Shown piece after piece: positions 1,291 through 14,367 of a stretch of DNA of 14,367 nucleotides; position 1 is the first letter of the stretch, and the number at the start of each line of letters is the position of its first letter. The DNA lies in NCBI GenBank assembly GCA_014376915.1, contig JACMQP010000199.1, forward strand, positions 1 to 14,367. The letters run 5' to 3'. Below the pieces are notes generated by a model, which was not told the origin of the DNA, searched no databases, and worked only from the letters and a program-made list of their open reading frames with translations. The DNA comes from Ramlibacter sp. (GTDB taxonomy: Bacteria; Pseudomonadota; Gammaproteobacteria; Burkholderiales; Burkholderiaceae). Both the position numbers and the translations under genes were made by a program.

Positions 1291-1586
1291 GGCGCGAAGC
1301 CGGCCTTCTGGGGCCAGAGATTGGTGAAGGCGTGAACGGCGGTACTGGCATACAGGCCGCCCCGGGTGAAGGGCTCGGCCGCGAGCCATGCCTGCGCCGC
1401 CTCGCGCGACGGGAAGTCGATCGCCAGCAAGCTGCCCAGCATCTGCTGGCCGTCATCGGTGGTGAACGGGCCGGCGAAGGCAATCCGGTCGGCCACAGCC
1501 GCCAGGTAGGCCTTGTGCTCGGGCCGCAAGCGCTGGCGCAGTTCGGCGGCGCCGGGCCTGTCCATCAGGATGAAGGTGTAGATCAT
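1287..1586 (-). CDS. YciI-like protein, possible TftG-type dehydrochlorinase or isomerase
   Basis: 99 residues covering the whole YCII fold: MIYTFILMDRPGA at the N-terminus, R-x-x-H in LRPEHKAYL, the glycine turn FAGPF, SLLAIDFPSREAAQAWLAAEPF, and a final strand AVHAFTNLWP. The conserved aspartate (D9) and histidine (about H24), proposed as the acid-base pair in this family, are present. The ATG at 1586 overlaps the dioxygenase stop (ATGA, 1583-1586). Established knowledge: TftG, a YciI-family protein of the 2,4,5-trichlorophenoxyacetate pathway, removes HCl from 5-chlorohydroxyquinol just before the hydroxyquinol 1,2-dioxygenase step. Direct adjacency to such a dioxygenase makes a similar dehalogenase or isomerase role attractive, but this is inference; many YciI proteins have no known reaction. 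Confidence 0.85.
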   Translation of the reverse strand: MIYTFILMDRPGAAELRQRLRPEHKAYLAAVADRIAFAGPFTTDDGQQMLGSLLAIDFPSREAAQAWLAAEPFTRGGLYASTAVHAFTNLWPQKAGFAP

Positions 1587-2425
1587 GGGCCGGCTTTCGC
1601 GCAGGGGTTCAGCACGAAGTCGTACTCCAGCAGGTAGGTTCCATCGGCCTGCTGGCGCCAGTCGGCGACCAGCGATTCGCGCACGCCGAACACGGCGTCC
1701 GAATCGAGGTACTGGTCGCCACTGCGGAACACATGGGTCACCAGCCGCTCATAACCGTCGGCCACGATCATGAAGTGCAGGTGGGCAGGCCGCCAGGGAT
1801 GGCGGCCGGTGGCCTGCAGCAACTCGCCCACCGGGCCGTCGTGCGGGATCGGATACGACTCGGCCAGCACGCTGCGGAAGGCGAAGCGGCCGTCCGGGCC
1901 GGAACGCAGCACGCCGCGCGCCTGGTGGTGATCCAGGCCCTCGTACTGCACGTCGTAGTTGCCCTGGGCGTCGGCCTGCCAGACCTCCACGGTGGCGCCG
2001 GCCACGGGCTTGCCGTCCAGGCCCAGCACGCGGCCAAGCACCAGGCAGGGCTCGCCCGCAGCGCCGTTGGCGATGTCGGCGCCGTTCTCGTACTGCGGCG
2101 CCCCTTCAACGTGGAACGGCCCGAACACAGTGGCCTCGGTGCAGCCCTGCGGCTTGTCGTTGTTCATCGCCACGGTGAGCATCGACAGGCCCAGCGTGTC
2201 GGACAACAGGATGAACTCCTGGCGCCTGTCGGTGGTCTTGTGGCCGACCTCGGTCAGGAACCGGATGCCCTGGAGCCACTCATCCTCGGTCAGCCGCACG
2301 TCGCGGGCGAAGGCATGCAGGTGCTGCACCAGGCTGGTCATGACTTCGCGCAGCCGTGCGTCGGGCGTGCCCGCCAGCCGCGCGATAACGGCCTGGGTGA
2401 TGTTGTCCTGAGTGAGATTGCGCAA
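1583..2425 (-). CDS. Intradiol ring-cleavage dioxygenase, probably hydroxyquinol 1,2-dioxygenase type
   Basis: 280 residues from a TTG start at 2425. GGAGG lies 5 bases upstream, and the resulting N-terminus, MRNLTQDNITQAVIARL, matches the family. An upstream ATG at 2548 would add 41 basic residues unlike the family and would use up the promoter region. The N-terminal helical dimerisation domain contains RRQEFILLSDTLGLSML, followed by EATVFGPFHVEGAP. The beta-sandwich carries all four Fe(III) ligands: Y157 (GNYDVQ), Y191 (ESYPIPHDGPVG), H215 and H217 (HPWRPAHLHFMI). These enzymes add O2 between the two hydroxylated carbons of catechol or hydroxyquinol, giving muconates or maleylacetate, in the cytoplasm. 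The long N-terminal linker domain and the sequence favour hydroxyquinol over plain catechol, but substrate specificity is not proven. It heads the four-gene coupled operon and is divergent from a LysR regulator that probably controls it. Confidence 0.93.
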   Translation of the reverse strand: MRNLTQDNITQAVIARLAGTPDARLREVMTSLVQHLHAFARDVRLTEDEWLQGIRFLTEVGHKTTDRRQEFILLSDTLGLSMLTVAMNNDKPQGCTEATVFGPFHVEGAPQYENGADIANGAAGEPCLVLGRVLGLDGKPVAGATVEVWQADAQGNYDVQYEGLDHHQARGVLRSGPDGRFAFRSVLAESYPIPHDGPVGELLQATGRHPWRPAHLHFMIVADGYERLVTHVFRSGDQYLDSDAVFGVRESLVADWRQQADGTYLLEYDFVLNPCAKAGP

Positions 2426-2594
2426 GAAGCCTCCGGCGCAGCACAGTCGCTGCCGGTCGAATTTAGGAGAGCGGCGGCGCTTGCGGAAGACCGGGGACGC
2501 AAATGACTTTTTCGCGCAGCGGAACACTGGCCGGCCCAGGCGCGACAATCGCCAGCAGGAACATTCAAAAAAAGCCGACTGGCAGGAGAAGCGC
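2426..2594. promoter_or_regulatory. Divergent promoter/operator region between dioxygenase operon and LysR regulator
   Basis: This 169-base gap separates two genes that both start with TTG and both have strong Shine-Dalgarno sequences (GGAGG at 2431-2435 read on the minus strand, AGGAG at 2584-2588 on the plus strand). It contains an inverted repeat TTGCG-N12-CGCAA at 2481-2502, a candidate LysR-type operator. On the minus strand a weak -10-like TAAATT (2460-2465) lies 17 bases from TTCCGC, which overlaps the repeat. This would put the operator at the -35 region of the dioxygenase promoter. A run of seven A at 2576-2582 may add bending. Promoter boxes are poor matches; the operator is a guess from symmetry and position. 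Confidence 0.45.
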
Positions 2595-3524
2595 TTGGAT
2601 CGCTGGACCGAAATCGAACTGTTCGTGCAGGTGGCAGAGACCGGCAGCCTGAGCCGCGCCGCCGAGGCGCTGGAGCTGTCGAACGCCGCCGCCAGCCGTC
2701 ACCTGTCGGCGCTGGAGCAGCGGCTGGGCGCGCGGCTGGTCGAGCGCAACACCCGCCGGCTGTACCTGACCGACACCGGCACCGAGTTCTTCGCGCGGGC
2801 CCGGGCCATCCTGGCAGACCTGAAAGACGCGGAATCGGCGGTGAACGCCACGGCGCTCAACCCCACCGGCATGCTCCGGATCACGGCCTCGCTGTCGTTC
2901 TCGATGCACCACGTGGCGCCGCTGCTGCGCGAATACACCCAGCGCTACCCGAACGTGCAGGTCCACGTGGAGGCCGCCAACCGCTACCTGGACATCATCG
3001 ACAACAACATCGACGTCGCCATCCGCACCCGCGAATACGAGCCGGACTCGAACATCACGATCCGGCGGCTGGCCGAAACGCGGCGCATCCTGGTGGCGTC
3101 GCCGCGCTACTTCGCCCAGCACGGGCGGCCGGCCAGCCTCGAGGACCTGCAGCGTCACAAGCTGCTGCTCTACGTGCACGCGAACAACCCGAACGAGTTG
3201 CGCTTCAGCCGCCAAGGGCAGACGACGGCCGTCGCCGTGCACGGTCTGCTGGAATCGAACGACGGACAGATTTTGCGCGCCGCCGCGCTCGACGGGCTGG
3301 GCATCCTGGTGCAGCCGACCTACATCGTCTACGACGACATCGTGGCCGGCCGGCTGGTGCCGGTGCTGGACGAGTGGGACCTGCCGCGGCTGATGATCAA
3401 CCTGGCTTACCCCAGCCGCAAGCACCTGTCGGCGAAAGTGCGGACCTTCATCGACTTCATCGCCGAGCACTTCGGCCGGATGGAATACCAGCGGAAGTGG
3501 ACCGGGCGCTTCAACGTGTATTGA
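2595..3524 (+). CDS. LysR-family transcriptional regulator
   Basis: 309 residues from TTG 2595, with AGGAG 6 bases upstream. The start MDRWTEIELFVQVAETGSLS is typical of LysR proteins. The winged helix-turn-helix covers about residues 3-60 (RAAEALELSNAAASRHLSALEQ as recognition region, then LVERNTRRLYLTDTG). A linker helix (FFARARAILADLKDAESAV) leads to a substrate-binding domain from about residue 90. That domain includes the subunit features DIIDNNIDVAIRTREYEPDSNITIRRLAETRRILVASPRY, seen in the CrgA/DmlR-like subgroup. The protein ends in the usual basic tail. No frame upstream of the TTG looks like LysR, which supports this start. The divergent arrangement suggests it controls the intradiol dioxygenase operon, with an aromatic intermediate as likely inducer, and its own gene. 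The DNA target is inferred. Confidence 0.93.
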   Translation: MDRWTEIELFVQVAETGSLSRAAEALELSNAAASRHLSALEQRLGARLVERNTRRLYLTDTGTEFFARARAILADLKDAESAVNATALNPTGMLRITASLSFSMHHVAPLLREYTQRYPNVQVHVEAANRYLDIIDNNIDVAIRTREYEPDSNITIRRLAETRRILVASPRYFAQHGRPASLEDLQRHKLLLYVHANNPNELRFSRQGQTTAVAVHGLLESNDGQILRAAALDGLGILVQPTYIVYDDIVAGRLVPVLDEWDLPRLMINLAYPSRKHLSAKVRTFIDFIAEHFGRMEYQRKWTGRFNVY

Positions 3525-3598
3525 GCGGCCGCGCCCTTTCTGTCGAGTTTCCGTCCTACAGGCGGGTTGAATTTCGTTGCATAGGATGAGCCGCCTCA

Positions 3599-4894
3599 AT
3601 GCCTGCCAACATGAAAGTCAAGAAAAAAGTGGTCCTCTGGTTTGTCGCCGGCCTTGCAACGGCACTGCTCCTGACGCTGCTGGTCATCAACCTCTCCTCG
3701 AGCGAGAAGAAGATCGATCGGCAGCTGCAGCGCCACTACGGCTCGGCCGACCCCCAGTTCCAGTACGAGATGGGGACGCTGCTCGGTCCGCCCATCATCG
3801 ACGGCAACCGCTACAAGACGCTGGTCAACGGCGTGCAGATCTTCCCTTCGATGCTGGAGGCGATCGGCTCCGCCCGCAAGACGATCAACTTCGAAAGCTA
3901 TATTTACTGGTCGGGCGAGATCGGCCAGAAATTTGCCGACGCCCTGGGCGAACGGGCTCGCGCCGGAGTCAAGGTCAACGTGCTGCTGGACTGGGCCGGC
4001 AGCGCGAAAATCGACAAGAAGATGCTGGAGAACCTCAGGGCCTCCGGCGTCAGGCTGGAGCGGTTCCACAAGCCGTCCTGGTACCACCTGGGCCGCCTGA
4101 ACAACCGCACCCACCGCAAGCTGCTGGTTGTCGACGGCGCGGTCGGCTTCACCGGCGGTGTCGGCATCGCGCCGCAGTGGGAGGGCAATGCGCAGGACAG
4201 CGACCATTGGCGTGACAGCCATTTCCGGGTGGAGGGACCGGTGGTGGCGCAGATGTAATCGGTATTCGTCGACAACTGGACCAAGGCATCGGGCGAAGTG
4301 CTGCACGGCCCCGCGTACTTTCCGCCGCTGGCCAGGGTCGGCGAGCAGCGGGCCCATATGTTCTCCAGCTCGCCGACCGGCGGCGCCGAGAGCATGCAGC
4401 TGATGTACCTGATGGCCATCACCGCCGCCGACCAGAGCATCGACCTGGCCAGCGCCTACTTCGTGCCCAACGAGCTGACACGGGCGGCCATGGTCACGGC
4501 GATGAAACGAGGCGTGAAGGTCCGAATCATCGTGCCCGGTCCGTTCACCGACGCCGATACCGTGGGCAACGCCTCGAAAGCGACCTGGGGCGAGCTGCTG
4601 GACGCGGGCGCGAAAATCTACGAGTACCAGCCCACCATGTACCACTGCAAGGTGATGGTGGTGGACGGCCGCATGTCCTCGGTCGGGTCGACCAACTTCG
4701 ACCAGCGTTCCTTCAGCCTCAACGACGAAGCCAACCTCAACGTCTACGAAGAAGATTTCGCCCGCGAGCAGACCCACATCTTCGAGCTGGACCTGGCAAA
4801 AAGCCGTGAATACACAGCCGCGCAGTGGCACTCGCGGCCGGCGTGGGACCGGTTCAAGGAACGCGCTGCCAGCCTGTTGTCGTCACAGCTGTGA
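3599..4894 (+). pseudogene. Phospholipase D/cardiolipin-synthase-like gene, broken by an in-frame TAA
   Basis: One frame encodes a complete two-HKD phospholipase D superfamily protein of about 430 residues, interrupted at codon 220 by TAA (4256-4258). N-terminal part: basic start, transmembrane helix about residues 11-31, then the first HKD motif THRKLLVVDG (H172, K174, D179) and HWRDSHFRVEGPVVAQM. Right after the stop the family sequence continues as SVFVDNW. The second HKD motif is YHCKVMVVDG (H349, K351, D356), followed by SSVGSTNFDQRSF. Homologues usually have Gln in the M-Q-x-V-F segment, so CAA to TAA is the likely change. Intact, it would join two phosphatidylglycerols to cardiolipin, or move phosphatidyl groups, at the inner membrane. 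Both halves are otherwise undamaged, so the lesion is recent or a sequencing error. Each half has only one HKD, so independent activity is unlikely. The start could also be ATG 3611; no strong ribosome site decides. Confidence 0.88.
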
Positions 4895-4896
4895 CG
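4881..4896. repeat. 16-base perfect palindrome at the end of the phospholipase D-like gene
   Basis: CGTCACAGCTGTGACG reads the same on both strands and includes the stop codon (TGA, 4892-4894). It can form a hairpin with a 6-base stem and an AGCT loop, or be the site of a symmetric DNA-binding dimer. It is followed at once by a second GC-rich stem, so a role in ending transcription is possible. Confidence 0.55.
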
Positions 4897-4920
4897 CCGG
4901 CCCCGAGGCCCGGGGGTCGG
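4897..4920. terminator. Possible GC-rich hairpin between convergent genes
   Basis: CCCCG (4901-4905) pairs with CGGGG (4911-4915) around AGGCC. The flanking CCG (4897-4899) can pair with CGG (4918-4920) across a bulge. It lies in the 39-base gap between the convergent phospholipase D-like and FAH-family genes. No T-tract follows on either strand, so it is a weak terminator candidate. Confidence 0.3.
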
Positions 4921-4933
4921 GAGCGCCCTGGGC

Positions 4934-5812
4934 TCAGCCGTCGACAAAGCGGTTCTCGATCTCGCCCAGTCCGTCGACGGCGATCCGTACCGTGTCGCCG
5001 GCCTTGAGCCAGCTGGGGGGCGTCATTCCCATGCCGACGCCGGCCGGCGAGCCGGTGGCGATCAGGTCGCCCGGGTGCAGCGTGATGCCGCGCGACGCGG
5101 TCTCGATCAGGCTGGGCAGGTCGAAAATGAGGTCGGTGGTCAGCGCGTCCTGGCGCAGGTCGCCGTTGACCCAGCAGCGCACGCGGGTGTTGCGGCCATC
5201 GAGTTCGTCGGCCGTCACGATCCACGGACCCATCGGGCAGAACGTGTCGAACGACTTGCCCAGATCCCATTGCTGGTGGCGCATCTGCACGTCGCGCGCG
5301 GTGACGTCGTTGACGATGGTGTAGCCGAAGACGTGCGCCATCGCCTGGTCGCGCGGAATGTTCTTGCCGCCCTTGCCGATGACGATGGTCAGTTCCGCCT
5401 CGTAGTCGATCTGGGTCGAAATGGCGGCGCCGGGCAGCACCACCGCGTCCTTCGGACCGATCACCGTCTCCGGCGCCTTGGTGAAAAAGATCGGCCAGGA
5501 GGTCGTATCCGCCGCATTGTTCTTGAACACCGAGGCTTGCAGTTCCCTGGCGTGCGCGTGATAGTTGCGGCCCACGCACCACACGTTGCGCCGCGGCACG
5601 GGAATCGGCGCTTCGAGTTTGACGCCGCCCAGCGGTAGCGCGGCGCCCCGGGTGGCGGGCATGGCCGCGCCACCAGCCAGCTGCTCGATCAGCGCGAGCA
5701 TGCCGCGCTCGCCGGCAGCGGCGGGCAGGTCCAGCGCGGTGACCGTCCGGCCATCCGCAGCAAACACGCCGACGTGGCGCTGGCCCTGGTGATTGAAAGT
5801 TGCAAACCTCAT
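4934..5812 (-). CDS. Fumarylacetoacetate hydrolase (FAH) family protein
   Basis: 292 residues, ATG at 5812 with AGGAG about 6 bases upstream. A short N-terminal domain (MRFATFNHQGQRHVGVFAADG) precedes the FAH catalytic domain from about residue 75: VWCVGRNYHAHARE, FFTKAPETVIGPKDAVVLP, the metal-ligand stretch IDYEAELTIVIGKGGKNI, GYTIVNDVTARDVQ, KSFDTFCPMGPWIV, and the C-terminal LHPGDLIATGSPAGVGMG. The two glutamates of YEAEL and the aspartate of NDVTARD are the usual Mg/Mn ligands. Relatives hydrolyse or isomerise beta-diketo acids from aromatic breakdown (fumarylpyruvate, 2-hydroxyhepta-2,4-dienedioate, 2,4-diketo-3-deoxy acids); the exact substrate cannot be read from sequence. It is divergent from the tannase-like gene by 130 bases, which fits shared control in aromatic-ester catabolism, though that is inference. 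Confidence 0.92.
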   Translation of the reverse strand: MRFATFNHQGQRHVGVFAADGRTVTALDLPAAAGERGMLALIEQLAGGAAMPATRGAALPLGGVKLEAPIPVPRRNVWCVGRNYHAHARELQASVFKNNAADTTSWPIFFTKAPETVIGPKDAVVLPGAAISTQIDYEAELTIVIGKGGKNIPRDQAMAHVFGYTIVNDVTARDVQMRHQQWDLGKSFDTFCPMGPWIVTADELDGRNTRVRCWVNGDLRQDALTTDLIFDLPSLIETASRGITLHPGDLIATGSPAGVGMGMTPPSWLKAGDTVRIAVDGLGEIENRFVDG

Positions 5813-5895
5813 CGACTCTCCTGTTGCGGTGGCCGCAGACGACCCATGGCGGGAAAGTCCGGATTATCGGCTGCGTCGGGCGGCTTTTGCGGCCG

Positions 5896-5901
5896 ATATG
5901 A
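5896..5901 (+). promoter_or_regulatory. Candidate -10 box (TATGAT) upstream of the tannase-like gene
   Basis: TATGAT lies in the 130-base divergent gap, 41 bases before the chosen start at 5943. No good -35 hexamer sits 16-18 bases upstream, so an activator would be needed. If real, it favours start 5943 over the in-frame ATG at 5898, which overlaps the box. Confidence 0.3.
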
Positions 5902-5942
5902 TCGCTCTCGCGGCGCTGGCCCGCGCTCGAAGAAAGACCCCC

Positions 5943-7655
5943 ATGACTGTCTCCCCTGTTGCCGCGCCGCGCGCACTCCTGGCGCTGGCCGGGCTCGCGT
6001 TGCTCAGCGGCTGCACCGCCCTGCCCTGGACCCAGTCAGACGCGGATGCCGAACTTGGCTGCACCGCGCTGATGGCGCCGATCCCGGCGTCGGCCATCGG
6101 CCTGCCCAGCGGTGGCGCCGTCATCGAAACCGCGACGCTGCTGCCCGCCAGCGGCCTGACACTGACCAATCCCCTGCCCTTCATCCCGCCGCCGCCCGAG
6201 GCCGTGGTGCAGCCAGCCACCCCGCAGTTCTGCAAGGTGGTCGGCGCGATCCAGCCGGTGGACCCGAACGCGCCGCCGATCCGGTTCCAGGTCAATCTGC
6301 CCACGCGCTGGAACGGCCGTTCGCTGCAATTGGGTGGCGGCGGCTTCAACGGCGTGCTGGTCACCGGCCTGGGCCTGCCGCCCTCGGCGCGCATCGACCT
6401 GCCGTCGCCACTGGCGCGCGGCTTCGTCACGGTGGGCACCGACTCGGGCCACCAGAACTCGCCCACGGTGCCGCTGCAGGCCTTCGCTCTCAACGACGAG
6501 GCGCTCGCCAATTTCGCCCACGCTTCGTACAAGAAGGTGCGCGACCTGTCGGTCGAGCTGATGAAGCGCCGCTACGGCCAGGCGCCGCAACGGCTGTACT
6601 TCATGGGCAGCTCCGAAGGCGGCCGCGAAGGGCTGACCATGGCCCAGCGCTACCCGCAGGACTTCGACGGCATCTTCGCCCGGGTGCCGGTCATCCACTG
6701 GATGGGGCTGCAGGCGGCCGGGACGCGCATGGGAGCGACCCAGCTGGGCGACGGCTGGCTCGCGCCCGCCGACGTGAAGCTGGTCGGCCAGGCCGTGCTG
6801 GCGCAGTGCGACGCGCTGGACCGCCGGGTCGACGGCATCGTCGGCGACCCGCAGGCCTGCCACGCCAGCTTCGACCCGGCGCGGCTACTGTGCCGCGCGG
6901 CCAAAACGCTGTCCTGCCTGACTGAAGCGCAGGTGCAGGCGCTGCGGACTCTGCATTCGCCTTACGAGTTCAGCTTCCCGCTCGCGAACGGCGTGCGCAG
7001 CTATCCCGGCTGGGCCTGGGGCGGCGAAGCGGCCAGCGGCACCGGCCCGGTGGGCGGCTATGTCAGCTGGCAGACCGGCACCGCCCGCCAAACCCTACCG
7101 GTGAGTGGCACCAGCAGCCGCGCGTGGCTCTACGGCAGCGGCGCGATCCAGTACTTCGTGCTGCGCGACGGCAACGCCGACCCGAGCCGCTTCAAGCCCG
7201 AGGAGCACGCGCAGCGGGTGGGCGAGATCTCGCAGCTGATGGATTCGACCGACCCCGATCTGTCGGCGTTCCGCGCGCGCGGCGGCAAGCTGGTGCTCAG
7301 CGAGCACCTGGCCGACTACGCGCAGAGCCCGTATGCGGGCATCGCGTACTACCGCGCGGTGGTCGCGAAGATGGGCCAGGAGACGGCGGACGATTTCCTG
7401 CGCCTGTACACCACGCCCGGCGCCGACCACGTGGGCACCGGAGCGCCGGTCGGCGTCGACATGCTCGACGTGCTGGTGCAATGGGTCGAGCATGGCCGCG
7501 CCCCGCAGGACCTGGTGCAGGTGGACCTGGAGCCGGTACCGCCGTTCCCGGTCATGACGTCGCGGCCGATGTGCCGCTGGCCGGCGGTGCAGCGCTACCG
7601 CGGCCACGGCGACCCGGTCCGCGCCAGTAGCTACGAATGTGCAAGGGACAACTGA
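5943..7655 (+). CDS. Tannase/feruloyl esterase family lipoprotein with altered active-site disulfide positions
   Basis: 570 residues. Residues 1-24 form a lipoprotein signal ending in the lipobox LLSGC (C24). The tannase-family alpha/beta-hydrolase follows: LPTRWNGRSLQLGGGGFNG, FVTVGTDSGHQ, the nucleophile motif MGSSEGGREG (S224), a Ca-site-like CDALDRRVDGIVGDPQAC, DPDLSAFRARGGKLVLSEHLAD (D458), PGADHVGTG (H496), and the characteristic C-terminus RPMCRWPAVQRYRGHGDP. Family members cleave gallate or hydroxycinnamate esters outside the cytoplasm. Usually Cys precedes the nucleophile (G-C-S) and follows the histidine (H-C), forming a disulfide that ties the triad. Here these are S223 and V497, so both partners are gone together. 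Ser-Asp-His remain, so it is likely active on a different ester. It is followed at 99 bases by a Bug receptor, perhaps importing the product. An in-frame ATG at 5898 is an alternative start. Confidence 0.9.
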   Translation: MTVSPVAAPRALLALAGLALLSGCTALPWTQSDADAELGCTALMAPIPASAIGLPSGGAVIETATLLPASGLTLTNPLPFIPPPPEAVVQPATPQFCKVVGAIQPVDPNAPPIRFQVNLPTRWNGRSLQLGGGGFNGVLVTGLGLPPSARIDLPSPLARGFVTVGTDSGHQNSPTVPLQAFALNDEALANFAHASYKKVRDLSVELMKRRYGQAPQRLYFMGSSEGGREGLTMAQRYPQDFDGIFARVPVIHWMGLQAAGTRMGATQLGDGWLAPADVKLVGQAVLAQCDALDRRVDGIVGDPQACHASFDPARLLCRAAKTLSCLTEAQVQALRTLHSPYEFSFPLANGVRSYPGWAWGGEAASGTGPVGGYVSWQTGTARQTLPVSGTSSRAWLYGSGAIQYFVLRDGNADPSRFKPEEHAQRVGEISQLMDSTDPDLSAFRARGGKLVLSEHLADYAQSPYAGIAYYRAVVAKMGQETADDFLRLYTTPGADHVGTGAPVGVDMLDVLVQWVEHGRAPQDLVQVDLEPVPPFPVMTSRPMCRWPAVQRYRGHGDPVRASSYECARDN

Positions 7656-8720: not shown

Positions 8721-8738
8721 TGGGCGCTAGAACGCCCG
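8721..8738. terminator. Small hairpin between convergent genes
   Basis: GGGCG (8722-8726) pairs with CGCCC (8733-8737) around CTAGAA, with a T-G pair at the base. It sits exactly where the Bug-receptor and dihydropyrimidinase-like genes converge, their stops being 9 bases apart. The loop holds the stop codon of the minus-strand gene. There is no T-tract, so termination is unproven. Confidence 0.3.
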
Positions 8739-10139
8739 AACCTCGCCGCGCGGAACGAAGCGCCCCATCCCCTCGCGCCCCAGCCAGCGCGGCCCTTCGA
8801 CGATCAGGTTGCCGCGCAGGAACACTTTCTCCACCCGGCCGCGCAAGGCCCGGCCCTCCAGCAGCGTGTAGTCGCAGTTGCCATGCAGGTCGCGGGCGCG
8901 GATCGTCTGGGTTGCCAGCGGGTCGAACAGCACCACATCGGCGTCGCTGCCCACGGCGATGGTCCCTTTCTTCGGAAACAGGCCGAACAGCTTGGCCGGG
9001 GTGGTCGAGGTCAGCTGCACGAAGCGGTTCAGCGAGAGCTTGCCCTGCATCACGCCGATGTCGAACAGGCTGACCAGCCGGGTCTCGATGCCGGGCGCAC
9101 CGTTGGGAATCAGCGAGAAGTCGTCCTTGCCGCGCATCTTCTGCTGCCGGTAGCCGAGGTGGCCTTCCTTCATGCAGAAGGGGCAGTGGTCGGTGGCGAT
9201 CACCTGCAAGTCGTCGTACCGCAGCGCCCGCCACAGGTGCTTCTGGTCGTCCGTGGTTCGCAGCGGCGGCGTCATGACGTATTTCGCGATCGCGACGTCG
9301 TCACCGGCGTAGGCCGAATCGTCGAACAGCAGGTAGTGCGGACAGGTTTCGGCAAAGACTGGAATGCCTTCGTCCCGCGCCGTGACGATGTGCTTGAGCG
9401 CCTGGTTCGACGAGACGTGGACGAAGTAGATCGGCGCTTCGGCCAGCTCCGCCAGCCGGATGCCACGGTGCGTCGCCTCGCCTTCCATGATGGCCGGCCG
9501 CGTCAGCGCATGGTAGCGCGGCGAGGTGTGGCCCGCCTCCAGCGCTTCCTTGATCAGCAGGTCGATGACCGTGCCGTTCTCGGCATGCAGCGCCACCATC
9601 CCGCCGTCGGCACCGACCTGGCGCAGCATCCGGAAGATGGCGGCATCGTCGGCCATCATCACGCCCGGGTAGGCCATGAACATCTTGAAACTGGTGACGC
9701 CTTCATGGCGCATCGCATGGCGCACATCCGCCAGCACCTGGTCGTCGACCCGGGTCACGATCACGTGCAGGCTGTAGTCGACCGCCACCTGCGCCTCGGC
9801 GCTGCGCTGGGCGCGGGCAATCGCGCCCAGCGGCGAGTCGGTTTCGGTCTGCAGCGCGAAGTCGACGATGGTGGTGGTGCCGCCGAAGGCCGCGGCCCGG
9901 GTTCCGCTGGCGAAGGTGTCGCAGGTGACCGTCGGGCCGATCACGTTTTCCAGATGCACGTGGGTGTCGACGCCGCCGGGCAGCACGTAGAGCCCGGTGG
10001 CGTCGACCACATCGACGTCCTCGCCGACGGTGAGTTGCCGGCCGATGGCCTCGATCAGGCCGTCGCGCATCAGCACGTCGGCCAGGTAGTCGTCGGTGGC
10101 GGTGATGACGCGGCCGCCGCGAATCAGGGTTGAATTCAT
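8727..10139 (-). CDS. Dihydropyrimidinase/D-hydantoinase family cyclic amidase
   Basis: 470 residues, the normal length for the family. ATG 10139 has GAGGAG 9 bases upstream, overlapping the end of the preceding gene. The composite N-terminal beta-sandwich (MNSTLIRGGRVITATDD) leads into an amidohydrolase TIM barrel with all binuclear-metal ligands: H60 and H62 (GGVDTHVHLE), the carboxylated lysine K152 (TSFKMFMAYPG), H185 (VALHAEN), H241 (YFVHVSSNQAL) and D317 (IATDHCPF). YSLHV and PNGAPGIETRL are further family landmarks. It hydrolyses cyclic diamides such as dihydrouracil or hydantoins to N-carbamoyl amino acids, in the cytoplasm. It is the last gene of the operon. No N-carbamoyl amidase (the usual next step) is in the window. 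True substrate unknown; its company (barbiturase-family and deaminase-like proteins) points to a pyrimidine- or ureide-like compound. Confidence 0.95.
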   Translation of the reverse strand: MNSTLIRGGRVITATDDYLADVLMRDGLIEAIGRQLTVGEDVDVVDATGLYVLPGGVDTHVHLENVIGPTVTCDTFASGTRAAAFGGTTTIVDFALQTETDSPLGAIARAQRSAEAQVAVDYSLHVIVTRVDDQVLADVRHAMRHEGVTSFKMFMAYPGVMMADDAAIFRMLRQVGADGGMVALHAENGTVIDLLIKEALEAGHTSPRYHALTRPAIMEGEATHRGIRLAELAEAPIYFVHVSSNQALKHIVTARDEGIPVFAETCPHYLLFDDSAYAGDDVAIAKYVMTPPLRTTDDQKHLWRALRYDDLQVIATDHCPFCMKEGHLGYRQQKMRGKDDFSLIPNGAPGIETRLVSLFDIGVMQGKLSLNRFVQLTSTTPAKLFGLFPKKGTIAVGSDADVVLFDPLATQTIRARDLHGNCDYTLLEGRALRGRVEKVFLRGNLIVEGPRWLGREGMGRFVPRGEVRAF

Positions 10140-10151
10140 GTTCTCGACTCC

Positions 10152-11651
10152 TCAACAGCAGCCGCGAAACTGCGCGCTGCGGTAAAAGGGTCCCAGGTCC
10201 TCGGCCAGGGCATCGACCGTGCGACGCCAATGCGCGGCGTCCCCGGCCGCTGCCAGGCTACCGCGGACCTGCGCAATCAGCTCGGCGCGCAATGCGGCTT
10301 CGTCCACTGTGAGAACGCGGCCACCCCGGACCACGGCACGGCCGCCGATAAAGACCTGGTCGACATGCGCGCCGCTGGCTCGGGCCAGCAGCAGGTCCAG
10401 CGGATCGATGCCGGGCAGCAGAGCGTCGTCATCGAGCGTCTCCCAGTCCAGCACCAGCAGGTCGGCTGCGACGCCCTCGACAATCCGGCCGCCGGCCGTG
10501 GCTGCGGCGTCGATACCATTGACACTGCGCCTGCCGTGGATCGCAGCGAAGGCCCAGAGTTGCGCGCTGCTCATCTCCACCTCGTATCCCCAGCCCCGAT
10601 GCAGCGAATAGGCCAGCCGCATCTCGCGCAGCGCGTCGTCGTCTTCATCGAATGCCATGCCGTCCAGCCCCATCGCGATGCGGCAGCCCTGGCGCAGCAT
10701 CTCGCCCACCGGGGCGATGCCAGATTTCAGTCCCAGGTTGGAACTCGTGTTGACGGCGATGGTGACGCCACGCTCGGCCAGCAAGGCCAGCTCCGCCGGC
10801 CGGGCCCAGGCGCAATGCGCCAGCGTCAGCCGCGGGCTGAGCAGGCCGATGCGGTCGAGGAAATCGACGATGCCTTCAGGATGTGCCTGATCGGCCCAGT
10901 CGCGCTGGTAACGCGTCTCCAGCAAGTGCATGTGCACCGGCCGGCCGGTGTCGGCCGATGCCTGCGCAACGGCTTCCAGCAGCGGCGTGCTGCACCACTG
11001 GACGCCGGTCGGACCGTACTGCACCGTGACGTTCCCGGCGTAGCCTGCTTCCCGCACCATGCGGGCGACGTCATCGACCTGCGCCAGTTGCTGGGGCGCG
11101 GACGCCGGCCTCACCGACAGCCGCGCGGCCACTTCCTGCCGAATGCCGGGGCGCAGCGCCTCCAGCACGACTGTGTCGTCGCAGTAGCCCAGCCCATGGC
11201 GATCCCGCAGCGCGATCGCAAAGCCGATCCGCAGGCCCACATCGCAGGCAGCACGCGCGACGGCACGCGCTTCCTCCAGATACGGTCCCAGTCCCTGGAC
11301 CCGGGTGTAGTGCACCATCGCATCGCTCACGCCGCGCTTCACGGTCCGCGCAAAGGACGTTGCGGCGCAAAGATAGGGATCGGCCCCGGGGATCAGACCC
11401 AGGTAGGGCAGCCAGCCCTCCAGCGGCTGACCGAAGGCGCCGAGCGTGGCGCTGCGAAAGGTGCGCGCATGGTCGTGAGCGTTGACCAGTGCCGGCAGCA
11501 CCAGACGGCGGCGGCCGGCAGGGGCCGCATCGAGCGGGCCGATCTGCGCGACCCGTCCGGCGGCGATAGACAGGCGCATGTCCGCCTGAGCGGCGCGAGC
11601 GCCTGGATCGGCGATCAGCCAGGCGCAATCGATGCGGTCTGCTGCCTGCAC
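10152..11651 (-). CDS. Amidohydrolase of the Atz/Trz/SsnA/cytosine-deaminase type
   Basis: 499 residues from GTG 11651, preceded by GAGGG 7 bases upstream; the DUF3830 stop is 10 bases before it. The open frame extends further upstream, but that part lies in the DUF3830 gene. Motifs: LPALVNAHDHARTF (H59, H61 of HxH), HMHLLET (H240/H242), LAHCAW (H279), VNTSSNLGLKSG, and GLDGMAFDEDDD (D330), the usual mononuclear-metal pattern of hydrolytic deaminases and dechlorinases. Relatives remove amino, chloro or alkylamino groups from pyrimidines, purines, s-triazines or open amidines. The acidic run EDDD after GLDGMAF and the cysteine end FRGCC are noticeable. Twelve bases separate it from the dihydropyrimidinase-like gene, so they are co-transcribed. 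A deaminase feeding a ring-opening step is the natural reading but is inferred; substrate unknown. Confidence 0.87.
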   Translation of the reverse strand: MQAADRIDCAWLIADPGARAAQADMRLSIAAGRVAQIGPLDAAPAGRRRLVLPALVNAHDHARTFRSATLGAFGQPLEGWLPYLGLIPGADPYLCAATSFARTVKRGVSDAMVHYTRVQGLGPYLEEARAVARAACDVGLRIGFAIALRDRHGLGYCDDTVVLEALRPGIRQEVAARLSVRPASAPQQLAQVDDVARMVREAGYAGNVTVQYGPTGVQWCSTPLLEAVAQASADTGRPVHMHLLETRYQRDWADQAHPEGIVDFLDRIGLLSPRLTLAHCAWARPAELALLAERGVTIAVNTSSNLGLKSGIAPVGEMLRQGCRIAMGLDGMAFDEDDDALREMRLAYSLHRGWGYEVEMSSAQLWAFAAIHGRRSVNGIDAAATAGGRIVEGVAADLLVLDWETLDDDALLPGIDPLDLLLARASGAHVDQVFIGGRAVVRGGRVLTVDEAALRAELIAQVRGSLAAAGDAAHWRRTVDALAEDLGPFYRSAQFRGCC

Positions 11652-11661
11652 GTCGCTGCCC

Positions 11662-12072
11662 TCAGAGCGCTTCGAACACCACGTCCTGCGCCCCGTGCCA
11701 CAGCACCTTGGTGCCCAGCGCACGCAGGTTCTCGCGCCCTTCGACCACCGTCAGGAAATGGTTGCCGGCCAGCGGCCCCATCTTGCTGGCGAAGCTGCAT
11801 GCGCCGTAGGCAATGAGCAGCTCGGTCTCGCTGTAGCCCCCTGGGTAGAACAGGATGTCCCCTGCCGATGGATGGCTGGTGTGGTTCTCGAACCCGACCC
11901 CGAGCTTGAATTCCCCCAGCGGCACCCAGCACGCTTCGCCGCTCCAGCGCACGTGGATCAGCCGTTGCCGGTACGGCAGCAGCTTCATGAATGCGGCAAC
12001 CGTCTGGGGCGCATCGGGGTTGGTTTCGGCGACAAAGGTGTGGCCGCCGGCGGTGATTCGGATTCGGGTCAT
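11662..12072 (-). CDS. DUF3830 family protein (cyclophilin-like fold)
   Basis: 136 residues, full length for DUF3830. Landmarks: MTRIRITAGGHTFVAE, LPYRQRLIHVRWSGEACWVP, FENHTSHPSAGDILFYPGG, SETELLIAYG, and SKMGPLAGNHFLTV. The family has a cyclophilin-like beta-barrel, but no reaction is established. Its genes often sit with amidohydrolases, hydantoinases and transporters, as here. ATG 12072 overlaps the stop of the barbiturase-family gene (ATGA, 12069-12072), so the two are translationally coupled and probably made in similar amounts. The invariant W-S-G-E and H-T-S-H-P residues line up as a possible ligand pocket. It may be an accessory or binding protein for the same substrate, or an uncharacterised hydrolase or isomerase. 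Confidence 0.85.
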   Translation of the reverse strand: MTRIRITAGGHTFVAETNPDAPQTVAAFMKLLPYRQRLIHVRWSGEACWVPLGEFKLGVGFENHTSHPSAGDILFYPGGYSETELLIAYGACSFASKMGPLAGNHFLTVVEGRENLRALGTKVLWHGAQDVVFEAL

Positions 12073-13202
12073 GGGCTTGGTTCCATTCGAACGATGGCAG
12101 CGACCGGCCCGCCGCCCGGCGGACCCTGGTGTTCGGCGCCGCCGGAGACATATAGGGCAGTATGGCCCACGACCGACGCGAGCACAGCGCCGACGGCGGC
12201 ACGCGCATGCCGGGTGGAATTAATGTCGGAGTCATCCAGCATGGTGTGGCGCTGGCCGCGCACCGCGCCATCGGGGGCCGCCTCGGCCTTGGCGAACAGG
12301 TTCACCAGCCGGCGAACCACGGCGTCCGGGTCCTCGTCGGGGTCGAGCCCGAAGGCGTTGCGCAGCAGCCGGCGAACGCTCGCTGCATCGACCGCGTCGC
12401 GCATGACGGCATGGGCGATGCGGTAGGGCGACGCCGACCCCATGGCCTCGCCGAGGACGATCACCACGTTGTTGTCCAGCTCGATGCCGGAAGAGGCAGA
12501 GGCCCGCCCTGAAAAGAGGGAACCGTCCGCAAGGATGTTGGCTTGCGCCACGGCCTCGCGGGTCACCTCACCCAGGGCCACTGCGACGCCCAGCGCCGAA
12601 GCGCCGCGCGACCAGCCCATCGACTCGTAGCTGTCGCTGGTGACGGTGGACTGGCCGCGGGCCAGCGCCTCGCTTACCTTCGCCGCGGTGAGCAAGGGGC
12701 ACTTGATCTGGACGAAATGCACGTCTGCGCAATGGCGGATGCCCGCATCCAGCATCGCGGTCCGCACTGCGGCAGCAGTCGCATCGACCTGCGCCAGCCG
12801 CCCGATCTGCTCCGGCGCGAAGTCCGTTGTGTGGGCGACGCCGAGCACCAGCCGCTTGTCACCGGCGCGGCCGTGGTCCGGCAGCAAGCGCCGGGTGAAG
12901 ACGGTGAAATGCGGCGACAGCACGCCCTCGGTTCCACCCGACATCACCAGTGCGACACGATCGCCGACCTGTTCCGGCTTGCACCCGAGGTGACCAGCGA
13001 GAAAGTGCGACCAGGCCAGGGTTGCGAATTCGCGGGTGTGGTCGTTGACGCAGCCATTGCCTTCGGTCTTGCCCATCACCGCGACGATCTCGGACGGCAG
13101 CAGCTGCCCGGAATCGACCAGCGCGCGCACGCCGCTCAAATCACCGGGGCCGGCGCAGGCCACCCGACAGACGCCGACCTCCTGGCGTAATGCCGCGCTC
13201 AT
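12069..13202 (-). CDS. Barbiturase/cyanuric acid amidohydrolase family (Toblerone fold)
   Basis: 377 residues from ATG 13202, which overlaps the deacetylase stop (ATGA). The sequence shows the three-repeat architecture of this family, each repeat giving a Lys-Ser pair: K45 (VMGKTEGNG) with S88 (LVMSGGTEG), K167 (VQIKCPLL) with the serine of RASASSG (about S238), and K305 (LFAKAE) with S353 (YVSGGAEHQGPPGGG). SMGWSRGASALGVA and MLDDSDINSTRHARAAVGA are further signatures. All three pairs are intact. Known members open cyanuric acid (to carboxybiuret) or barbiturate (to ureidomalonate); I cannot tell which, or a third ring, from sequence alone. It lies in the middle of an operon with deaminase-like and dihydropyrimidinase-like genes. 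A longer frame upstream (to 13901) is the antisense-free shadow of the deacetylase and is not used. Confidence 0.92.
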   Translation of the reverse strand: MSAALRQEVGVCRVACAGPGDLSGVRALVDSGQLLPSEIVAVMGKTEGNGCVNDHTREFATLAWSHFLAGHLGCKPEQVGDRVALVMSGGTEGVLSPHFTVFTRRLLPDHGRAGDKRLVLGVAHTTDFAPEQIGRLAQVDATAAAVRTAMLDAGIRHCADVHFVQIKCPLLTAAKVSEALARGQSTVTSDSYESMGWSRGASALGVAVALGEVTREAVAQANILADGSLFSGRASASSGIELDNNVVIVLGEAMGSASPYRIAHAVMRDAVDAASVRRLLRNAFGLDPDEDPDAVVRRLVNLFAKAEAAPDGAVRGQRHTMLDDSDINSTRHARAAVGAVLASVVGHTALYVSGGAEHQGPPGGGPVAAIVRMEPSP

Positions 13203-14113
13203 TGGGTCACCTCCGCGGCATCGGCAATCGCGCCCGGCGTCGTCAGCCAGACATCCCCTGTGCCATCGGCGTTGCGGTGGGCGGCGATATGCTGTAGCGC
13301 CCGGCGCAGGTGCCGCAGCCGGTAAGGCTGGCCGATGAGGTAGGGATGCAGTGCGATGCCCATCACCAGCGACTGCGAACGCGACTGCTCCAGCATTTCG
13401 TCGAACTGGTCGATGATCATCTGCGCGAAATCCTTGCCGTCCATCAAGCGCCCCACGATCATTGGGATGTCGTTGACTTCCTGCGGATACGGAACGGACC
13501 ACAACCGGCCGGCCCGCGTTGTCATCAGCGTCGGCTGGTCGTCGTGGCACCAGTTGAGCGTGTAGCGAAACCCCGCTTCCGCCAACAGGTCGGGGGTCAC
13601 GGCGCTTTCCGAAATCCAGGGCGACAGCCAGCCCGCCGGCGCCTTGCCGTGGGCCCGCGCCATGCGCTCGCGGCAATGCACGATCAGGGCCTTTTCCTCG
13701 CTCTCGACCATCGTTCCCTGGCGCTGCGCGTTGGTGTGGCCGTGAGCGATCAGTTCGTCGCCGCGGGCCGCGAAGGCGTCGATCAGCTGGGGGCAATGGT
13801 CGTAGATCGCCGTGTTGACGATGGCGCCGGTGGGCAATGAAAGGTCGTCGAACAGGTCGAGGCAGCGCCAGACGCCGACCCGGTTGCCGTAGTCGCGCCA
13901 AGCGTAGTTCAGCACGTCCGGCGGCGGCGCGGCAGGCGCCAGGTTGGCGCCCAGGCCCTCGCCGAAGGCGAAATGCTCGATGTTGAAGCCGATGTAGAGC
14001 GCCAGCCGCGCGCCGCCTGGCCAGTGCAGGGGCGCCCGGCCGCCGATCGGCGAATAGTCGAAGCGGCCATGCGATGGCAGGGCTCCAAGATGCGCGGAAG
14101 CCGGATCATTCAT
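13199..14113 (-). CDS. PuuE-like polysaccharide deacetylase family protein
   Basis: 304 residues, ATG 14113, overlapping the permease stop by 8 bases (ATGAATGA). Landmarks: HWPGGARLALYIGFNIEHFAFGE, YGNRVGVWRCLDLFDDL, DELIAHGHTN (H124, H126), GWLSPWISES, LNWCHDDQP, VPYPQEVNDIPMI, and the late LHPYLIGQPYRLRHLRRAL. This is the NodB-fold subgroup containing PuuE allantoinase and related amidases, not the chitin or peptidoglycan deacetylases. There is no signal peptide, so it works in the cytoplasm. The classical NodB DD metal motif is replaced by FNIEH. PuuE is a metal-independent cyclic ureide hydrolase, so a C-N hydrolysing role on a small ring or ureide fits the operon. The specific substrate is not predictable. 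The ATGA to the barbiturase-family gene links the two tightly. Confidence 0.88.
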   Translation of the reverse strand: MNDPASAHLGALPSHGRFDYSPIGGRAPLHWPGGARLALYIGFNIEHFAFGEGLGANLAPAAPPPDVLNYAWRDYGNRVGVWRCLDLFDDLSLPTGAIVNTAIYDHCPQLIDAFAARGDELIAHGHTNAQRQGTMVESEEKALIVHCRERMARAHGKAPAGWLSPWISESAVTPDLLAEAGFRYTLNWCHDDQPTLMTTRAGRLWSVPYPQEVNDIPMIVGRLMDGKDFAQMIIDQFDEMLEQSRSQSLVMGIALHPYLIGQPYRLRHLRRALQHIAAHRNADGTGDVWLTTPGAIADAAEVTQ

Positions 14114-14367
14114 CGCGCGCGACTCCCGGTCGGGCCGTCCGCCGGCGCGGCAATGTCATCAACGCATAGGCGACGCCCAGCACCACGAACGACACCAGGG
14201 TGGTGACCGTTCCCAGCGCATAGATGGCCGGCGTGGTGACGGTGCTGGTCAGCCCCTGCAGTTCCAGCGGCAGTGTGTTGAGGTCGCCGATGGCCTGCGA
14301 CGTCCGGGCGATCTCGTCCCAGCTCAGGGTAAAACCGGACATGCCGACCCCGATCAGGCTGGGCGCG
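14106..14367 (-). CDS. ABC transporter permease, PotC/YdcV-like (C-terminal part only)
   Basis: The frame enters from beyond the window end and stops with TGA at 14106; about 86 residues are visible (APSLIGVGMSGFTLSWDEIA..., ending RRRTARPGVARDE). The F-T-L-S-W-D-E segment is characteristic of the second permease of spermidine/putrescine-type importers (usually S-F-T-L-S-F-D-E). LPLELQGLTSTVTTPAIYALGT and a last transmembrane helix (TLVSFVVLGVAYALM) follow, then a basic cytoplasmic tail. The ATG at 14342 is internal, not the start. The other permease, ATPase and binding protein should lie upstream, outside the window. As first visible gene of the operon, it suggests that the substrate of the downstream amidohydrolases is imported by this ABC system, probably a small cationic or N-rich compound. 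Confidence 0.87.
   Translation of the reverse strand, partial: APSLIGVGMSGFTLSWDEIARTSQAIGDLNTLPLELQGLTSTVTTPAIYALGTVTTLVSFVVLGVAYALMTLPRRRTARPGVARDE

Follow-up and report, generated by a model that had tools for sequence, protein, structure and literature searches.

An operon of Ramlibacter sp. with cyanuric acid hydrolase, DUF3830 and hydantoinase-type genes: a putative nitrogen-scavenging unit for small cyclic ureides

Cyanuric acid hydrolase has mostly been discussed in connection with herbicide breakdown, and its natural role is given as unclear (PMC4051656). Cyanuric acid itself has been reported from oxidative DNA damage (PMC3758960) and from the secretions of Paramecium (PMC12342508). 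Clusters that join an allophanate hydrolase gene to atzGEH have been described from Rhodoferax and Variovorax, AtzH being a DUF3225 protein (PMC6219798). In this work, we describe a 14,367-nt stretch of DNA from Ramlibacter sp. (GCA_014376915.1, contig JACMQP010000199.1; hereafter the window), in which six genes, all on the minus strand, are packed at 8727-14366. We suggest that they form a nitrogen-scavenging unit for small cyclic ureides, with a cyanuric acid module and a hydantoin-type module behind one importer, a reading that we place slightly on the probable side. The genes, in operon order, and their convergent neighbor are the following.

14106-14366, minus strand: C-terminal 86 amino acids (aa) of a permease, probably of an ATP-binding cassette (ABC) importer; open frame, the gene continues past the window end
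13199-14113, minus strand: PuuE-like (polysaccharide-deacetylase-type) putative cyclic ureide hydrolase, 304 aa; TIGR03212 99.5 bits, match to 3cl6
12069-13202, minus strand: cyanuric acid hydrolase (CAH; AtzD-type ring-opening amidohydrolase), 377 aa; NF052395 533.4 bits, active-site residues
11662-12072, minus strand: DUF3830 protein, 136 aa; PF12903, cyclophilin-like fold predicted
10152-11651, minus strand: Atz/SsnA-type amidohydrolase, putative deaminase, 499 aa, GTG start; Amidohydro_1 105 bits
8727-10139, minus strand: dihydropyrimidinase/D-hydantoinase-family (DHP) cyclic amidohydrolase, 470 aa; TIGR02033 557.1 bits
7704-8717, plus strand: TctC-type solute-binding protein, convergent, downstream of the operon; PF03401 216 bits

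The first-pass annotation of this DNA had named the ring-opening enzyme a barbiturase/cyanuric-acid-hydrolase family protein; an assignment to barbiturase and barbiturate is not borne out by our data. Its score against NF052395, the NCBIfam model of cyanuric acid amidohydrolase, was above the cut-off of 360 bits, and its best PDB match was the cyanuric acid hydrolase 4bvq with 435.8 bits, against 290.7 bits for the barbiturase 5hwe. Three active-site Ser-Lys pairs are listed for AtzD (PMC3758960). The window CAH likewise contains three Ser-Lys pairs (K45/S88, K167/S237 and K305/S353), which are conserved without exception in an alignment of 81 proteins, and it also carries R57. The alignment comprised the window CAH and 80 relatives, the best 80 of 495, which were sought with short query motifs, so that the set leans towards the window protein. 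Moreover, five positions are reported to distinguish AtzD (Arg195, Thr321, Arg325, Gly345 and Gly346) from barbiturase, which in AtzD numbering has Asn195, His321, Lys325 and Val345 (PMC3758960). In the window CAH these five positions are R199, T330, R334, G354 and G355, of the AtzD kind in 81 of 81 proteins, as assigned by motif and constant within-domain offsets, not by structural superposition. Judged by its sequence, the gene product has the residues of a cyanuric acid hydrolase and not those of a barbiturase.

Were the enzyme a barbiturase, the operon would belong to the oxidative pyrimidine pathway and would degrade barbiturate or uracil. The protein does fit PF09663, and 5hwe is among its PDB matches; nevertheless, cyanuric acid hydrolases of known structure match it better (up to 435.8 bits), and the barbiturase residues Asn, His, Lys and Val are replaced by Arg, Thr, Arg and Gly throughout the alignment. 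On these specificity residues we rejected a barbiturase here, and we regard the oxidative pyrimidine pathway as extremely improbable.

The genes found around CAH in other genomes point to the composition of the first module. They were counted at the 80 CAH loci by tblastn at set thresholds, with families named from single representatives, and because some loci are cut by contig ends the counts are lower bounds. DUF3830 was found near CAH in 38 loci and the Atz-type amidohydrolase in 29, both together in 22 and either one in 45. For comparison, in a sample of 300 genomes of the order, 11 carried DUF3830 at any position. Additionally, the loci contained an ABC ATPase, a permease and a LysR regulator (45 each), an allantoinase/dihydroorotase-like amidohydrolase (hereafter CYC; 44), a short-chain dehydrogenase (41), an isochorismatase-like hydrolase (39) and a LOG-type protein (16). 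A genome of the Bradyrhizobium order (L262) has isochorismatase, NMT1, short-chain dehydrogenase, CYC, ABC ATPase, permease, NMT1, Atz, CAH and DUF3830 genes in one run, with cluster proteins 43-65% identical. We found no description of this DUF3830-CAH cluster in the open-access literature.

At the same thresholds, a PuuE relative was near CAH in one of the 80 loci (L001) and a DHP relative in none; weaker PuuE relatives were seen near CAH in L070 (40%) and L031 (24%), and CYC proteins match DHP at 27-32%. The comparison of gene neighborhoods proposed in the first-pass annotation thus found co-occurrence with CAH for the DUF3830 and Atz genes but not for PuuE and DHP, and the idea that all six genes are one conserved unit was rejected. 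L001 is a Ramlibacter metagenome contig of 4286 bases that carries, in the window order, homologs of the permease (81% identical), PuuE (84%), CAH (74%), DUF3830 (93%) and Atz (81%) proteins, the last as its first 222 residues only, where the contig ends. Since the same gene order recurs there, chance does not account for the operon block.

A second module consists of the PuuE-like and DHP-like genes, which also occur together in other genomes. The label PuuE-like given before stands as far as kinship goes, since the PuuE structure 3cl6 and its relatives match the protein, but not in the sense of a canonical allantoinase PuuE: the score against TIGR03212 lies so far below the cut-off (99.5 against 424.6 bits) that the protein is to be taken as a divergent relative. 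It shares with four canonical PuuE proteins many invariant positions, including N44/E46, H124, D191/D192, N214/D215 and H256. The DHP protein scored above the TIGR02033 cut-off of 393.25 bits, and its H60, H62, K152, Y157, H185, H241 and D317 are near-invariant in 16 sequences; we take all of these except Y157 to be metal ligands and the carbamylated lysine.

PuuE relatives were surveyed in 399 genomes of the family of Variovorax paradoxus (G004, locus L014), at E values up to 1e-40 and with at most five candidates scored per genome, and were present in 72 of them. DHP orthologs 84-91% identical to the window protein occurred in 13 of 398 genomes, with three more at 66-68%. All but one of the 13 (G644) also hold a PuuE relative (hypergeometric 6e-9, a value that ignores kinship), and in five (G551, G618, G677, G356 and G472) the two genes lie ~1.5 kb apart. 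Neighboring genes were examined in 12 of the 13 genomes: in ten, a ureidoglycolate-lyase-family gene (Pfam 194 bits in the representative L197) adjoins DHP or lies one gene off, the two without such a neighbor being L205, where the contig ends, and G472. A class-V pyridoxal phosphate (PLP) enzyme gene stands beside DHP in eight loci from seven genomes (TIGR01976 in L162). In L197-L201 and L204, DHP, the class-V PLP enzyme, an RpiR-type regulator, the ureidoglycolate-lyase-family gene and an ABC importer with SBP_bac_3 form a recurring operon.

Among the nearest relatives of the PuuE-like protein are four at 74-77% identity (L155-L157 and L159). In two Pseudacidovorax genomes (L109, L110; L164, L165), a relative of the ring-opening enzyme (34-35%) is directly followed by a PuuE relative (48-50%), and the gene order of L109 and L110 indicates that the ring-opening/PuuE pairing recurs with a distant family member. 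In L165 a TctC-type binding protein was observed ~1.3 kb beyond this pair. At a separate locus, L166, a PuuE-like protein (30%) and a ring-opening relative (31%) are encoded together with NMT1 and ABC genes and with a RutB-like isochorismatase that scores 288 bits (cut-off 378); this is possibly another pyrimidine or ureide cluster.

According to the first-pass annotation, one unrecognized cyclic ureide or aminopyrimidine would be deaminated and then ring-opened twice by these enzymes in sequence. Such a linear pathway agrees with the tight, operon-like spacing of all six genes, with the order of five of them in L001 (where the contig stops within the fifth) and with the presence of a second cyclic amidohydrolase, CYC, near CAH in the wider cluster (44 of 80 loci). 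However, some other genomes have the PuuE/DHP pair but not the CAH/DUF3830/Atz set, and some the reverse, so that passage of one substrate through all the enzymes is not supported; moreover, CAH has cyanuric acid residues, and its product carboxybiuret is no longer cyclic. The earlier annotation had named the occurrence of close homologs apart from each other, with unrelated confirmed functions, as evidence that would count against it, and in part this is what we found, as close relatives of the PuuE-like and DHP proteins sit in other operons elsewhere. We consider the linear pathway decidedly unlikely.

AtzG, AtzE, AtzH and AtzF are all absent from the operon genes in the window. The lack of AtzE and AtzF had been pointed out before, but related genomes hold them. 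In 20 genomes that we chose from those behind the 80 CAH loci, allophanate hydrolase exceeded its cut-off in 19, and in ten it lies on the same contig as CAH, 4.8-27 kb apart. Sixteen of these genomes contain exactly one member of the ring-opening family, and the other four hold six more, 31-45% identical to that of the window. In L264 and L265, AtzE, an AtzH-like gene and a BMP-type transporter stand between allophanate hydrolase and CAH. Among the 80 loci, AtzE was near CAH in nine, AtzH-like HpxZ in six and AtzF in four, with any of the three in 11; we call HpxZ (NF033625) AtzH-like on the assumption that it equals DUF3225. In the tree of the 81 proteins, the CAHs near these three genes are not one clade but are scattered among those near DUF3830/Atz genes, occurring in both main groups (of 24 and 57 rows), although several inner forks are weak. 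Because of this interspersion, CAH activity is probably the same in the two settings, as far as sequences can tell.

The Atz-type protein matched 23 NCBIfam families and reached the cut-off of none; it fits Amidohydro_1 with 105 bits. H59, H61, H242, E245, H279 and D330 are near-invariant in 39 sequences (window included) and fit the HxH, H, HxxE and D arrangement that we assume to be the metal/catalytic pattern of Atz/SsnA-type deaminases. Its predicted model came closest to adenosine deaminase homologs, isocytosine deaminase and triazine hydrolases, guanine deaminases also being alike. These data bear on whether the locus is an ordinary s-triazine operon, in which the Atz-type enzyme would deaminate ammeline or ammelide from melamine breakdown to cyanuric acid, CAH would open the ring and PuuE and DHP would be bystanders. 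The specificity residues of CAH, the likeness of the Atz model to triazine hydrolases, guanine deaminases and also nucleoside deaminases, and the allophanate hydrolase nearby in related genomes are all in keeping with such an operon. Nevertheless, the Atz protein passes no family cut-off, and melamine use would leave unexplained DUF3830, the dehydrogenase and CYC, which accompany 38-44 of the 80 CAH loci and occur in one genome of the Bradyrhizobium order. On this evidence an ordinary s-triazine operon seems unlikely.

The DUF3830 protein fits PF12903 with 104.7 bits (gathering cut-off 26), and its predicted model has a cyclophilin-like fold, closest to 3kop and to Pictet-Spenglerases, the group of KslB and McbB. 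Its R42, E46, E62, E82 and H105 are invariant, and H67 is nearly so. The tie between DUF3830 and ring-opening enzymes, suspected in the first-pass annotation, was corroborated in two settings: beside CAH, in the 38 of 80 loci mentioned above, and in six related genomes of the Bradyrhizobium order, where DUF3830 heads an operon with PuuE (allantoinase) and OHCU decarboxylase. The Pfam families beside DUF3830 were tallied with a rough gene caller that gave spurious frames; the tally served as a lead only, and the PuuE and OHCU/HIUase genes were checked apart. DUF3830 was mentioned in no paper that we found in the open-access literature. A kinship with the 5-oxoprolinase/KipI-type cyclophilin domains was also considered and may exist, although these were not among the fold matches listed and a literature search gave nothing of use on it. 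Another idea was that DUF3830 is an allantoin racemase, and the literature search yielded nothing on DUF3830 in that respect; cyanuric acid is achiral. We infer that DUF3830 is a small ring-handling protein and probably an enzyme, for example an isomerase or one that provides acid-base catalysis, which would work beside cyclic ureide hydrolases in several pathways. The association with cyclic ureide ring chemistry provides a functional lead for this family.

Gene content and spacing were read directly off the sequence. In operon order, the junctions are overlaps of 8, 4 and 4 bases followed by gaps of 10 and 12 bases, as described before, which makes a single transcript likely; the GTG start of the Atz-type gene is our choice. 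As the permease gene runs past the end of the window, part of the importer is missing. By itself, the permease fragment matches no Pfam or NCBIfam family, but it is 81% identical to the permease of L001, and proteins 56-82% like it are encoded beside the PuuE relatives of L155-L157 and L159. Of these loci L155 was scanned, and there a GntR/FCD regulator and a binding protein of the SBP_bac_8 family are encoded with the permease and the PuuE relative. By analogy, the fragment probably belongs to an ABC importer.

For the substrates and the order of steps of the proposed scavenging unit, we infer the following. In the first module (CAH, DUF3830 and the Atz-type amidohydrolase), the Atz-type enzyme would deaminate an amino-substituted ring to the oxo ring, and CAH would open cyanuric acid to carboxybiuret/biuret; enzymes of the AtzE/AtzF type, encoded outside the operon, would then release ammonia from these products. 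In the second, the PuuE-like and DHP-like hydrolases would act on hydantoin-type rings, like those of allantoin or 5-hydroxyhydantoin, and yield ureido acids, for example ureidoglycolate. Triuret and cyanuric acid can arise when uric acid is oxidized chemically (PMC7948467), and allantoin is formed non-enzymatically from uric acid (PMC6983136). As both ring types can come from uric acid oxidation, purine debris is our preferred guess for their common natural source.

A bolder reading, which we regard as possible but doubtful, takes the CAH-centered cluster as an undescribed pathway from a natural oxidized purine or ureide to cyanuric acid. Its parts are an isochorismatase-like hydrolase, an importer, a short-chain dehydrogenase, CYC, CAH, in some cases a LOG-type protein, DUF3830 and the Atz amidohydrolase, and it ranges over Burkholderiales and one genome of the Bradyrhizobium order. 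The window variant would use PuuE and a hydantoinase instead, and DUF3830, with a cyclophilin fold like that of Pictet-Spenglerases, would represent a previously unrecognized class of ring enzymes. If such a pathway exists, cyanuric acid hydrolase would gain a natural metabolic home. In any case, a recurring multi-gene neighborhood tied to ureide chemistry makes the natural role of this enzyme testable.

Several observations weigh against the two-module scavenging unit. The window CAH has Ser238 at the position of AtzD Ala234. Nineteen of the 81 proteins have a residue other than Ala here, including 10 of the 12 from Bradyrhizobium, and the enzyme of Bradyrhizobium japonicum USDA 110 is listed as a characterized cyanuric acid hydrolase (PMC3758960). 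The PuuE-like protein falls below its family cut-off, as noted above, and the window contains no biuret or allophanate enzyme. Two modules in one operon were seen only in the window; its sister L001 breaks off inside the Atz gene, before the place where a DHP gene would stand. DUF3830 was not found near CAH in 42 of the 80 loci, including all 12 of Bradyrhizobium, a number that contig ends explain in part. The six operons with DUF3830 and PuuE differ little from one another, their PuuE proteins being 92-96% identical, and may represent one event. Additionally, our searches recognized no ureide hydrolase in 14 of 20 DUF3830 loci of the Bradyrhizobium order, so DUF3830 may have a wider role.

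The operon is adjoined in the window by intradiol dioxygenase, LysR regulator, FAA hydrolase and tannase/feruloyl-esterase genes (1583-7655), a content that suggests an aromatic-ester catabolic region. At 3599-4894 on the plus strand, a cardiolipin-synthase-like gene with two PLD-like domains is broken by one in-frame stop, which may reflect a pseudogene or a sequencing error.

The first-pass annotation had seen here an operon for C-N ring chemistry, which agrees with our results, and we found no description of its arrangement in the open-access literature. Among known systems, the atzDGEHF operon of Pseudomonas sp. ADP (PMC6219798) likewise has an AtzD-type cyanuric acid hydrolase as its ring-opening step, and related genomes hold AtzE-, AtzH- and AtzF-like genes, the AtzF gene lying on the contig of CAH in ten of the 20 chosen. 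The window differs in having no AtzG, AtzE, AtzH or AtzF and in adding DUF3830 and the Atz/SsnA-type amidohydrolase, PuuE-like and DHP-like enzymes. The barbiturase of the oxidative pyrimidine pathway (PMC3758960) belongs to the same protein family as the ring-opening enzyme of the window, which differs in that its specificity residues are of the cyanuric acid type.

The DHP/ureidoglycolate-lyase-family operons of the Variovorax family (L197-L204, L206 and L207) resemble the second module in their DHP, 84-91% identical, and in the PuuE relative ~1.5 kb off in five genomes. In contrast to them, genes for a ureidoglycolate lyase, a class-V PLP enzyme and an RpiR regulator are missing beside the DHP gene of the window. 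Finally, the urate/allantoin operon exemplified by L253, which comprises PuuE, OHCU decarboxylase and HIU hydrolase, likewise joins DUF3830 to a PuuE-family protein, whereas the PuuE-like protein of the window is ~27% identical to canonical PuuE and stands in a window that has neither OHCU decarboxylase nor HIU hydrolase.

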